Origin: Catenaria anguillulae PL171
Taxonomy: Eukaryota; Blastocladiomycota; Blastocladiomycetes; Blastocladiales; Catenariaceae
Length of the DNA: 64,000 nt
Reading direction: 5' to 3'
Assembly (NCBI GenBank): GCA_002102555.1
Contig: MCFL01000012.1
Span: forward strand, 372,001-436,000
The translations under genes and the position numbers were made by a program. Positions 54,830 to 63,900 of the stretch are shown here, one piece after another. Numbering within the stretch: position 1 is the stretch's first letter; every line of letters starts with the position of its first letter. The notes below the pieces were generated by a model. The model was not told where the DNA came from, ran no database searches, and worked only from the letters and a program-made list of their open reading frames with translations.

Positions 54830-57800
54830 CTAGTCCCTCGACTCGGAAACCTTGTCGCTTTCCAGCAACGGTTTCGCAGACGACTCCTGCTTGTCCAACC
54901 TGCGCCCAGCCGTTCCACCCCGTGACGCCGGCAACCGCGACGCCGCCTCGGCGGCAACATCCGAATCGGATACCCCTGCTTGTGCCTTGACTGACGTGAC
55001 CAATTTGCCCCCAACGGCGGTAGAGACAAACAGTTGGCCCGCAGACGTGGCGACCGTGGTGGAGCTTTGCATGGTGCTGCCGTCGTCCGCCTCCTCCTCG
55101 GTCGTTGGCGACATGGCTGCACTTGCAACGAGCAAGGGGACTGTGCGCTGGCCAGTGACATTCGTATCGATTGCACCCACTTTCTTGACGCCCAAAAGCG
55201 ACACATTGGGCGCTTGTGCTGAAGTGCCAGTAGGCATGGTCGATGAGCGAGCGCGCTGAATGGACGTGCTGACCACCAGCGGAATGAGCCCAGATCCATT
55301 CCCACCTGCACCAACGGCGCCAGGCCCGGACTCTCGTCTGATGGTATTGACGGTTGAAGGCACCGCGAGCATCACACTGCCCGCATTTGGGATGTTGTTT
55401 GAAGACAGCATCCCATTCTTACTTGCCTGAGCCGACCCCTTTTGTGAACTCTCCTCCTCGAGCTGATCCTTGAGCAGCACCACATCCTCAACGTCGCCAA
55501 ACCACTGATACATTTTGAGCACGGTCCCAATGCGCGACTCTGACCAGGCCTCGGGTCGCAACCGGCTGGGCAGTTTGGACATCTTTTTGTCCGTGGCACC
55601 GCCACCGGTTTGGCCTCGTTGCGCGACAAACGCGGCAAGCTCGGCACGGCGGCGAGCAACAAGGACTTTCCAGGCAACGTACCAGGGGAGCATCAAGAGT
55701 GGAAGTGAGAGGAAAATGCCCATGACAATGACACGCACAAGCCCAAGGTATTCCGATTCAGACTTGTGCGCCGAGTTTTGGACCATGGCGTTGGCGCACA
55801 GTAGAACTGTGATCAACGATAAACATGCGTGAGTGAGACATTTCTTTTCCTGGTTGGAGTTCAAGAAGATATGAAAAGGAAACGCACGCATCGATACATA
55901 TGTAAAGAACCTGAAGTTGTTCTCAAACCGCGACGCCAGCGGCTTGATGTACCACTGCTCAATGACAAATGCCCACAGGACAATGATCACGAGCAGCAAA
56001 TTGATGAGATACTCGGTCGTGGAATCCTTGGGCACCACCGTGGAAATCAACGTGATGATGGCCGTTTTGCACATGTCAATGATTCCCCAATACGGATACG
56101 CAATCTTGTACGTGCAGTAAAAGACACCCCACCGGGCAAGCATATTCAAGTCACGCAGCTTCTTGTCGCGGTTCAATGCTTGCAACTTGCGATACACGAG
56201 CACAGGCACAATGGCCAGCCAAATGACGAGCACAATGACTGCATACAGAAACGCCGGGACGTGTTGACCGACCAAGCATTGAACGTCTGGGGCTTCGACA
56301 AGGAACCGGCCGCGTGATCCGATTGTGCGGCAGTTGAGCAGGCTCATGGCCCCACCGACAATCGGCATGAATGTGAGGTTGAACATGATGGTGTATCGAG
56401 GCAGGAAAAAGAACCTCAGTGACGGCGAGGACCTCAAATCCTTGGGGACAAGGCGCTTGAAGCGCGACAGCGATGGGATCAGCTTGTGGAGGCGGTTCAT
56501 GGCCACAGCGATTGCATGGTACAATGCGAGGACGCCGATAAAGCAAAAGGGGGTGATGGCCTTCATAATGACCCGGTCCAAATTGGACAGGTTGGCGAGA
56601 CAAGTTCCGCGAGGGACGATGGGTGAGAGCAGCGCGTTGGAGTCGAAGGTGAGGATTTTCAGGACAACAATGCGCGCGACTAATTTGACAGTCGACAACT
56701 GTCAGGCAATGTCGGAAAGATTAAATGAAAGAAAGAGTTGATAAGAGCGGACCATCGTCTTGGTTGAGCAAGAAACTCGCCAATTGGTAAAATAGAAGCT
56801 GGATATTGGCACGAGTGATTAGTGTGTTCTTTGCCTCTGGTTCAAGCGGATACTGGAAACGTACAAAGTCGGACATGAAGACCGACTCATCCTGGTTGCA
56901 GATAACCACAAACACTGCCACGAATACCAGCGCAGCAAGCACTGGCACCGACAATAATCCATTGCTGCTTTCGGACTTGCAATCTGCGCATATCCCATTC
57001 CATTGTGCGTATCCATCCACCGCGCATGTGTTGCACAGGATGCCCGTCCGGTCGGCCGGGCAAGTCGCGTTGCGCGAGCACGAGCCTTGCGGGCAACAGT
57101 TCCCACCCTGACACTGGTAAAACTTTGGGTCGGTCATGCTGCTCATCGTGTCAAACCAATACCCCTGCTCAGTCAGGAGCTCTTCGCCGCCGGGGCATAC
57201 CCCGCCAACAGGACAGGGAAGACATTTCCCATCTGGAACTAGGTTGAAAGAACCAGGCGAGCATGTGCTGCACGTCCAAAACAGGCCCGTGAATCTCGCT
57301 TCTTGGCCTTGGAGGCAAACTGGTCGAACGCGATACACCTTTGGCAGCATGTAGTCCCACTTAGTTGGAGAGGATTGGAGCCAGGTGCACGCCGCTTGGT
57401 AGGCCGTCTGGTTGTGGAAAAACATGTCTGCTAGCATGTCGTTCATGTCCGATTCGTCAATGCGAAGCTTGGTCAGGAACTCGTAGGCCACTGGTGCAGA
57501 CTTTTCCAGGCGGGTGCTGACGAAACGCTTGACAAAAGTTTTCCCTGAGAGCAATCATTGAAAGTAGGCAAACTGATTTCGCAGTTTGGATGAGAGAGGA
57601 TCGGACAACAAACCATAGCCACACGGCCTGGTGCCATCAAAGTCCAGCTGAGCTTGACATTTTGCCGAATACTCTGGCAATGACATTTGTTCCAATGTCA
57701 TGTTGGCGATGCGACTCATGACCGCACTTGGTCGATGCATGTACTGCATGACATGGATTGCGCTGACATGGTCAGCTCGCGTCCAGGACAAGTTCAACGT

Positions 57801-60984: not shown

Positions 60985-63900
60985 TCACGCAAACCGCGCA
61001 GCCTCCACAATCTTCTCAGCACCAAGCTTCTTCAGCTCTTCCGCCGCCTCCTTGCCGCTGGCTGCCTCCACCGCCAAATGCTGCTTGCCATCCACGCTCC
61101 ACACATGCGCACTCACCTTCCACTTGTTGTTGCTGTCCTCGCCCGGCACCGCTCCACATTGACGGCCACTGGCACTTGACACCCGCCCTGAATGTCACGC
61201 AAAAACGTGCGCTCATGGTCACATGCCGCCCTCGTCTCTTGATCCTCGGCCAACTGCACGAGCCGTTGCGTACCCCAATCGCGGGCACGCACTTGCACGC
61301 CAATGGCGCCTTGCGACACGGCAGGCACCATGACTTGTGGATCAATCGGTGCAATGTGCACGTCGCGCAACACGTCCTTGGCATTGGGTAAACGCACCAG
61401 CCCGGCAGCCGCAAGCACGAGCGCATCGTACTTGACCCTGCTTGTCTCGTGCACGCCCAACAGCTTGGCGATCCGCGTGTTGAGGTTGCCACGGACATCC
61501 ACAATGTGCAAGTCGGGGCGCGCGGCCGCAAGTTGGGCGCGGCGGCGCAACGACGACGTACCAACGGTTGCGCCCTTTGGCAGATCGGCAAGCGACTTGA
61601 ATTTGTTGGCTGCTGCACTCACAAGCGCATCGCGCTTGTCCTCGCGCTTGAGCACGGCGCCCAGGGCCAGGTCGGCAGGCATGACGGTTTCGAGATCCTT
61701 GAGCGAGTGCTGGACCAAGCTCACGTCCCCATGCATGAGCGCCACCTCCAACTCTTTGGTAAACAAGCCTTTGTCGCCAATCTTTGCAAGCGCCACATCC
61801 AGGATCTTGTCGCCCTTTGTGGCCACGCCAGAAATGCGGAACCGATGAAGCGCCTGTGGGGCAAACGCCTGCTCGGGATCAAACTTGCGCTCCTTGGGAT
61901 GCTGCTGCGCTTGCTCGAGTGCATCGTGGACAATATGCGCTTGCGCCATGGCGAGCGGCGAGTTGCGCGACCCGATCGTGATGCTTTGCGCCTCCTCCAC
62001 AAAGGCGCGCACGTGCTCGGGGTCCATGTCGAGCTTGGTGCCGTGGCCCAAGTTGACAATGTACCGATGCTTGCCAAACGCCGAGATCATGGCGCGCACC
62101 TTGGCACGGATGTTTTCGGGCGACTCGTACATGACGTCGGGCTCGAGGTTACCCTGCAGCGTCACATAAGGCCCTGCGGCCTCGCGCTGCTCGGCAGGAA
62201 TCCCCGCCCAATCAATCGACACGGCATCGTACAAGGTTGTTTCGGCAATGGTGCGCGTGGCGAAATTGGCGCCGCGTGGAAACACCGTCATGGGGACGTG
62301 CGGGTGCTTTGCCTTGACGCCCTGTGCAATCTTGCGCAAATACGGCAACGCAAACTCGTAGAAATCCTGAGGTCCCAAATCCACGGCATTTGATTCAAAC
62401 ACTTGAACCACGTCTGCGCCCGCATCCACTTGCTTGCAAAGGTAGTCAATGGCCACGGAAGTGCACTTGCCCAGCAACAAGTGTGCCCAGTCCGGGTGCA
62501 TGTGCAGCCACTTTTTCGCCAAATCTTTGCCAATCATGTACGCCATGAGTGTCCAAGGTGCCCCGCAAAAGCCAACAAGTGCCTTGTCGCTGTCAAGCTG
62601 CGCGCGCGTCAGCTTGAGCGCATCGTAAACGTGCTGCAGGACGGCCGGCTGGTACGCCAGCTTTTCGATATCCTCGAGCGTGCGAATCGGGTGCGGGAAA
62701 AAGGGGCCGGGTTCATGATGAGCTCCATGCCCAGGGCTTGCGGAATGGTCATGATATCGGAAAAGATGATGGCGCAATCCACATTGTACCGCCACACGGG
62801 CTGCAGGGTGATTTCGGTGGCAATCTTTGGATCGGCCGTCATGTCGAGAAAGTTGAGGTCGCCCTTGACTTGTCGGTACTCTGGCAAGTACCTGCCAGCT
62901 TGCCGGTGCAGCCACACGGGCGGGCGTGGCACGCTAACGCCACGCAGAGCTTGCACAAATAGCGGTTCAATGTACTTGAAGCGCGGGGCGTGCATGGCGG
63001 CCGCCATGGACCGCGCACGGCGCGGGATGGCGGTCGGGTCGAGGTACCACGAGGCCGTGGGTTCGGCAATCACGGCAGGGAAACTCGCCGTGGTCGGGGG
63101 AAGGCACACGAGCGGCAGTGACGCTGACGTGTAGAGGGCAAGGGCCAGGTGGCCAGACCGCACATGGACCCAGTCGAGTTCGGGTTGTGTCAGAGTCGCG
63201 GGGGCACGCGGGGGGAGGTCATGCGAGAGTGTCGCGAAAGTGTCGGTTGAGGCAGCATTGTCCAAGTGACGCTTGATGGTCGACATGTAGGTCGCAAACA
63301 GGCCCAAGACGAGCTTGTGCGCAGGGACGGGCGAGTTGGCGGGCAGCGTGCACGTCAATCCGCCAATGCCGCGGTATCCAGTGCCGTTGGCAGACCGGAA
63401 GGCATTGTCGGCGGCCTGCTTGACGGTCGAGTAATCCAACTTGACCGACTGGCACAGGGCGTGAATGGCAGAGTGCCAATCAAAGGCGTCGTCCTCGTTA
63501 AGGAAGTAAGGCAGGAGCTCGGCCTCGAGCAACACGTGGCCCTTTGGGGCGAGGGTCCACGAGATGCGGACGGCGGACGCGAGCTTGTTGGTCGGGTAGG
63601 CGACGAGGTGGCGGGCAGAATCGAGGCGGACAAGCACGAGGCGGTCAAAGAGGCCCGGCACGACGTGGGTGAGGTCGGTGATGGACGAGTTGATTTGATC
63701 GGGCTGGACCATGGGTTGGGGTTGCGGGTTGGCTGTCCCAGCCGATGAGGAGCGCTGGTCATGGCCCACCACGGCGTCGAGGACGGCGGTGGCGAGGGCG
63801 TTGGCAATGGATTGGTCGGTGTCCATGGTGGTTTTGGTTTTGGTATTGGTTTTGGTTGTGGTTGTGGTGGGTGGATCGGGCAAAGCCGGAGCGGGCAGAA

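Follow-up and report, generated by a model that had tools for sequence, protein, structure and literature searches.

Whether two enzymes of the heme pathway, UROD and HMBS, are carried by one polypeptide in reverse pathway order is the question raised by a minus-strand locus of the zoosporic fungus Catenaria anguillulae PL171. The window is the whole stretch analysed, 64,000 nt long, and corresponds to positions 372001-436000 of contig C24 (557 kb) in an assembly of 41.07 Mb and 457 contigs. We consider it probable that the locus is one minus-strand protein-coding gene, running from 63826 to 60985 and encoding about 945 residues, in which a CPOX-derived pseudoenzyme domain is followed by UROD and HMBS (Table 1). 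The three parts are homologous to CPOX, UROD and HMBS and follow one another in this order, and the reading frame is continuous at both domain joins. The order along the chain, CPOX-like domain, UROD and HMBS, is the reverse of the pathway order. The sequence-only reading had proposed this reversal for UROD and HMBS, and it is extended by the CPOX-like domain before UROD, which had been overlooked.

Table 1. Parts of the proposed gene, in window coordinates and in the order of translation
Feature	Position	Strand	Basis or remark
Probable start codon	63824..63826	-	ACCATGG context
Divergent CPOX-like domain, ~270 residues	63008..63826	-	Coding-like codon usage throughout, frame a
PF01218-matched part of CPOX-like domain	63356..63523	-	Profile 125-181/295, 29.7-30.1 bits
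UROD N-terminal part	62708..62962	-	Profile 5-89, frame shared with CPOX-like domain; RQAGRYLPEYR and FSDIM
Frame break 1, inside UROD	62699..62725	-	Profile 89 to 91, near-gapless; no intron candidate
UROD remainder	61986..62711	-	Profile 91-344; Tyr, Ser and NLGHG His motifs
UROD-HMBS junction, single codon between Pfam matches	61983..61985	-	PF01208 and PF01379 profile matches
HMBS domains 1-2	61275..61982	-	PF01379 1-203; frame shared with UROD remainder
Frame break 2, inside HMBS C-terminal domain	61150..61185	-	At or just past cofactor-Cys motif GGCQVP
HMBS C-terminal domain, rest	60985..61149	-	Third frame; stop codon 60985-60987
59-nt GTGAGT..CAG stretch	61058..61116	-	Splicing would mend break 2; taken as coding rather than as intron

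UROD, HMBS and the junction between them

Of the three minus-strand frames, a stays open from a point above 64000 down to 62609 (ORF 63994-62612) and c between 62933 and 61113, and the end of the gene, up to the stop codon at 60985, falls in frame b. The stretch upstream of the probable start (64000-63827) is not clearly coding-like by codon-usage score, and the upstream neighbour, a gene for ribosomal protein L11, is read divergently and begins at C24:436324, some 500 bases away from the start proposed here. Elsewhere in the window, the minus strand at 56724-57554 weakly matches OpuAC (E = 1.8e-5), a glycine betaine binding domain of bacterial type, here in a fungal genome.

The UROD profile (346 positions) is matched in two frames, over positions 5-89 in one and 91-344 in the other. 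Each piece is above the PF01208 cut-off; taken singly, they score 107.6 and 230.9 bits with TIGR01464, short of its cut-off of 302.95 bits. HMBS scores above its cut-offs, with 234.1 bits versus 22.1 in the PF01379/PF03900 test and 255.7 bits versus 164 for the TIGR00212 equivalog. The UROD and HMBS motifs named in the sequence-only reading are present in the translated sequence. RQAGR, FSDI, AYM, FES and NLGHG align with the UROD chains of the PDB at the Arg pair, Asp, Tyr, Ser and His, which we take to be the active-site residues, and HMBS contains the cofactor-Cys motif GGCQVP.

A Pfam profile search places UROD and HMBS in a single open frame of 600 aa, with UROD at residues 69-310 (PF01208, profile 91-344/346, E = 9.8e-76) and HMBS at residues 312-547 (PF01379, profile 1-203/207, E = 1.2e-68). 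At the DNA level, the UROD match ends at 61986 and the HMBS match starts at 61982, leaving one codon between them. A codon-usage score was trained on five stop-free matches elsewhere in the genome (CPOX, FECH, ALAS, ALAD and PPOX) and not on this locus. It shows the same frame across the junction (60-base windows starting 62060-61910), and the frame is also unbroken at the join of the CPOX-like domain and UROD (windows starting 63080-62975). The earlier proposal that the end of UROD runs into the start of HMBS in one frame is thus borne out by Pfam matches one codon apart and by continuous codon bias.

These data also bear on the possibility that two or three adjacent genes merely look fused and are translated separately through internal starts or a missed intron. 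In favour of this, UROD would have a normal N-terminus if it started at the good-context ATG at 63007. However, the in-frame ATGs that flank the junction most closely, with none between them, are those at 62027, which lies within UROD, and 61949, which is codon 12 of the HMBS match and beyond its first conserved motif. Outside UROD, HMBS therefore lacks an ATG of its own. Given this lack and the spacing of one codon between the domains, no stop codon, untranslated region or intron would fit, and we regard separate genes as very unlikely. A mis-assembly that joined unrelated UROD and HMBS loci appears slightly more improbable again. The assembly does hold redundant and inverted copies, but a random join would rarely be in frame and exactly at both domain ends with unbroken coding bias, and UROD and HMBS are each a single locus.

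The two frame breaks

The single open frame proposed earlier for 60985-63826 does not stand, since the frame is broken at about 62710 in UROD and at about 61150-61185 in HMBS. The codon-usage score (60-base windows) favours frame a as far as the window starting at 62740, frame c from the one at 62725 and frame b from the one at 61185, and each break is of the shift class expected from a one-base indel. PF03900, the HMBS C-terminal domain, is matched over profile positions 3-25 (32.1 bits) in the sequence as assembled and over 3-72 of 74 (41.8 bits) when break 2 is read through. The third-frame tail alone matched no family, gave no HMBS among the PDB rows and did not align to locus L016, and a shorter XX-joined tail piece of 60 residues matched no family. 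Because the tail alone matches nothing, its identity is drawn from the read-through PF03900 match together with the codon bias.

Introns were considered at both positions. At break 1, no GT-AG intron of 40-300 nt in the right phase was found with a donor at 62690-62760 and an acceptor at 62500-62720, and an intron was rejected within these limits. At break 2, 70 combinations were obtained, of which the one with the best donor is the 59-nt GTGAGT..CAG stretch (61116-61058). Splicing it out leaves a PF03900 match of 3-25 with 33.3 bits, versus the match of 3-72 when it is read as coding; the stretch contains no CTRAY motif, frame b is preferred across it, and this candidate was rejected as well.

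Programmed -1 frameshifting would yield a short and a full-length product, and a slippery heptamer, CCCTTTT (62705-62699), lies in the right phase exactly at break 1. The stability of the downstream RNA, however, does not exceed that of shuffled sequences (z = 0.18 and 0.32), in-frame heptamers of the loose pattern also occur elsewhere in the locus, in CPOX and in FECH, and no such heptamer is listed at break 2. Programmed frameshifting is thus not supported by the RNA stability and the heptamer survey, and we give it hardly any credence.

The likeliest explanation is that both breaks are sequencing or assembly indels in a working gene, because one-base indels are the main kind of difference among near-identical copies of another locus in this assembly. 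Three copies of a rhodopsin-guanylyl cyclase locus (L011, L012 and L013), compared pairwise over 3.2-3.4 kb, show 23, 15 and 25 gaps, including 20, 12 and 19 one-base gaps, versus 19, 9 and 17 mismatches. One rhodopsin-guanylyl cyclase locus of the assembly encodes a cyclase domain that shares 186 of 187 residues with PDB chain 6sir, which we take to be a Catenaria anguillulae protein. According to passages of PMC9616733, rhodopsin-cyclase fusions occur in Blastocladiomycota, Sanchytriomycota and Chytridiomycota. Frame-split loci are also found elsewhere, including two of the three rhodopsin-cyclase loci, a chaperonin locus on C189 (its last piece below the cut-off) and a second ALAS copy (C417:76109-77239), which is broken into four pieces that adjoin or overlap in different frames, one of them with an internal stop. 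Two errors in 2.8 kb are nevertheless not automatic, because the UROS and FECH copy pairs show few indels, with three gaps per pair, one of them of one base, over 1.1 kb and 2.5 kb, and C24 may be better polished than the small contigs.

Alternatively, the breaks could be real mutations in a decaying fusion, with a working UROD and HMBS missing from the assembly or with a fungus that imports heme. Both breaks fall inside conserved domains, and by our own count on the alignments the loop at break 1 lacks about two residues compared with human UROD. Against this, the matched pieces are free of in-frame stops, the codon bias is intact on either side of each break, both enzymes score high, and the remaining pathway is present. 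We therefore consider decay of the fusion unlikely.

The CPOX-like domain

About 270 residues precede UROD in frame a, with no stop between them, and their codon-usage score is 0.23-0.51 in frame a and negative in the other two frames. The region matches PF01218 over profile positions 125-181 only, with E = 3.4e-7 and 29.7-30.1 bits, which is below the curated cut-off of 31.8; it also matches NF003727 (E = 4.4e-6). An hhalign comparison with five CPOX sequences gives E = 1.3e-5 and a probability of 80.8%, with 23% identity over 111 columns. With an HMM built from the five CPOX sequences, the domain scores 16.7 bits, a value reached by none of 20,000 shuffled sequences (6,545 reported, best 8.0). 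Among the 427 ORFs of at least 80 codons in the window, the CPOX-like ORF ranks first with 15.6 bits, and the next has 6.8 bits. The 27 ORFs of locus L004 served as the positive control for this HMM, and the true CPOX scores 400.4 bits. In a search of PDB sequences, human CPOX is second (E = 0.073), after an unrelated leptin-receptor row (E = 0.034). Both structure models are of low confidence; that of the CPOX-like domain matches CPOX folds, with an unrelated chain nearly as high. Because the model is poor and its alignment is CPOX-based, these fold matches support the assignment only circularly.

The domain resembles true CPOX (HemF/HEM13) over the 111 profile columns, but inspection of its sequence found neither the DRG motif nor the GGG-DLTP motif. 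Reference 154 of PMC7242693 names Asp400 and Arg401 in its title as residues examined in human CPOX, and counting on the 2aex alignment confirmed the numbering and placed both residues in DRG. When the hhalign anchor (RSGHL/RRGRY) is extended by eye without gaps, the Asp400-Arg401 site is occupied by Ala-Ser, whereas MAFFT alignments place Val-Arg there. The Asp is thus lost in every alignment and the Arg in the hhalign-based reading only. By alignment, no place was found in the domain for Arg262 of CPOX. Because GGG-DLTP and DRG are absent and the Asp is lost in all alignments, the CPOX-like domain is probably a pseudoenzyme.

Heme pathway and proposed function

In six-frame, exon-wise profile searches of the 41.07 Mb, UROD and HMBS each have one locus at E <= 0.001, both at the position described here, and no match to a separate second UROD or HMBS was found in this assembly, which may be incomplete. 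Outside the window, we found ALAS (C19), ALAD (C432), UROS (C432), CPOX (C323), PPOX (C268) and FECH (C334 and C141), and the CPOX on C323 is intact and full-length (profile 1-295/295, E = 1.9e-119). Since the only UROD and HMBS found are at this locus and the other enzymes are encoded elsewhere, a working heme pathway needs this locus. Two UROS copies (L006 and L007, C432:9475-10236 and 53-703) are inverted relative to each other close to one end of the contig and are 98.3% identical over 1,126 columns. The ferrochelatase copies on C141 and C334 (L008 and L009) are 99.2% identical over 2.5 kb, and they perhaps represent two haplotypes.

A passage of PMC7242693 describes UROD as acting as a homodimer. 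Provided that both UROD and HMBS work as enzymes and that UROD forms its usual dimer, each dimer would bear two copies of HMBS and two of the CPOX-like domain. The most likely gain would be a fixed 1:1 supply and the co-location of the middle steps of the pathway, and the CPOX-like domain, having apparently lost catalysis, would probably serve folding, dimerisation or docking. Direct hand-over would require docking of UROS, because this enzyme, which acts between HMBS and UROD, is encoded elsewhere (C432). Without hand-over, hydroxymethylbilane would close spontaneously to uroporphyrinogen I, which is also a substrate of UROD. Dosage coupling and co-location would be the safest reading, and docking of CPOX the bold one. 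In the latter, the CPOX-like domain would be a retired CPOX kept as a dock that pairs with the separate active CPOX; the chain would hold HMBS and UROD and recruit CPOX and perhaps UROS, forming a four-step heme assembly in which porphyrinogens are passed on unreleased and series I by-products are limited. We put this forward tentatively and think it rather unlikely.

Fusions around unstable porphyrinogens serve as evidence for substrate hand-over, and a chain in reverse order that skips an intermediate enzyme and carries an apparently dead CPOX offers a direct test of co-location versus dosage versus docking. It would also test how the cell limits spontaneous uroporphyrinogen I between HMBS and UROD. 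Pentafunctional AROM is a fungal multifunctional chain whose domains are active enzymes; the chain described here shares with it the fungal habit of fusing the enzymes of one pathway, but one of its domains looks inactive and the order is reversed. CysG-type fusions belong, to our knowledge, to the siroheme branch and contain no UROD, HMBS or CPOX domains. CysG and other siroheme/uroporphyrinogen fusions, as presented in passages of PMC7242693, have several tetrapyrrole enzymes per chain, as here. Table 3 of PMC4921024 lists an HMBS-UROS fusion (porphobilinogen deaminase/uroporphyrinogen-III synthase) and UROS-methyltransferase fusions. The bacterial HMBS-UROS (HemC-HemD) fusions likewise combine HMBS with another enzyme around uroporphyrinogen, but they join consecutive steps, whereas here UROS is skipped and encoded elsewhere and HMBS is C-terminal. 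No UROD-HMBS or CPOX-UROD fusion appeared in the titles and abstract starts searched, a coverage that lacks most subscription papers; this absence is weak evidence of novelty, and an annotated relative may exist.

Two further observations were made on other loci. Two adjacent ORFs of locus L010 (5264-6148 and 7947-8786) contain near-identical stretches (SFSPHPKYPKHVEWLCPNAAGNG...) and apparently represent a tandem duplication. In addition, 12 contigs of a viral collection (L017-L028, 9 to 177 kb) carry CPOX/HemF frames that include the DRG motif, possibly a phage-borne heme gene or cellular contamination.
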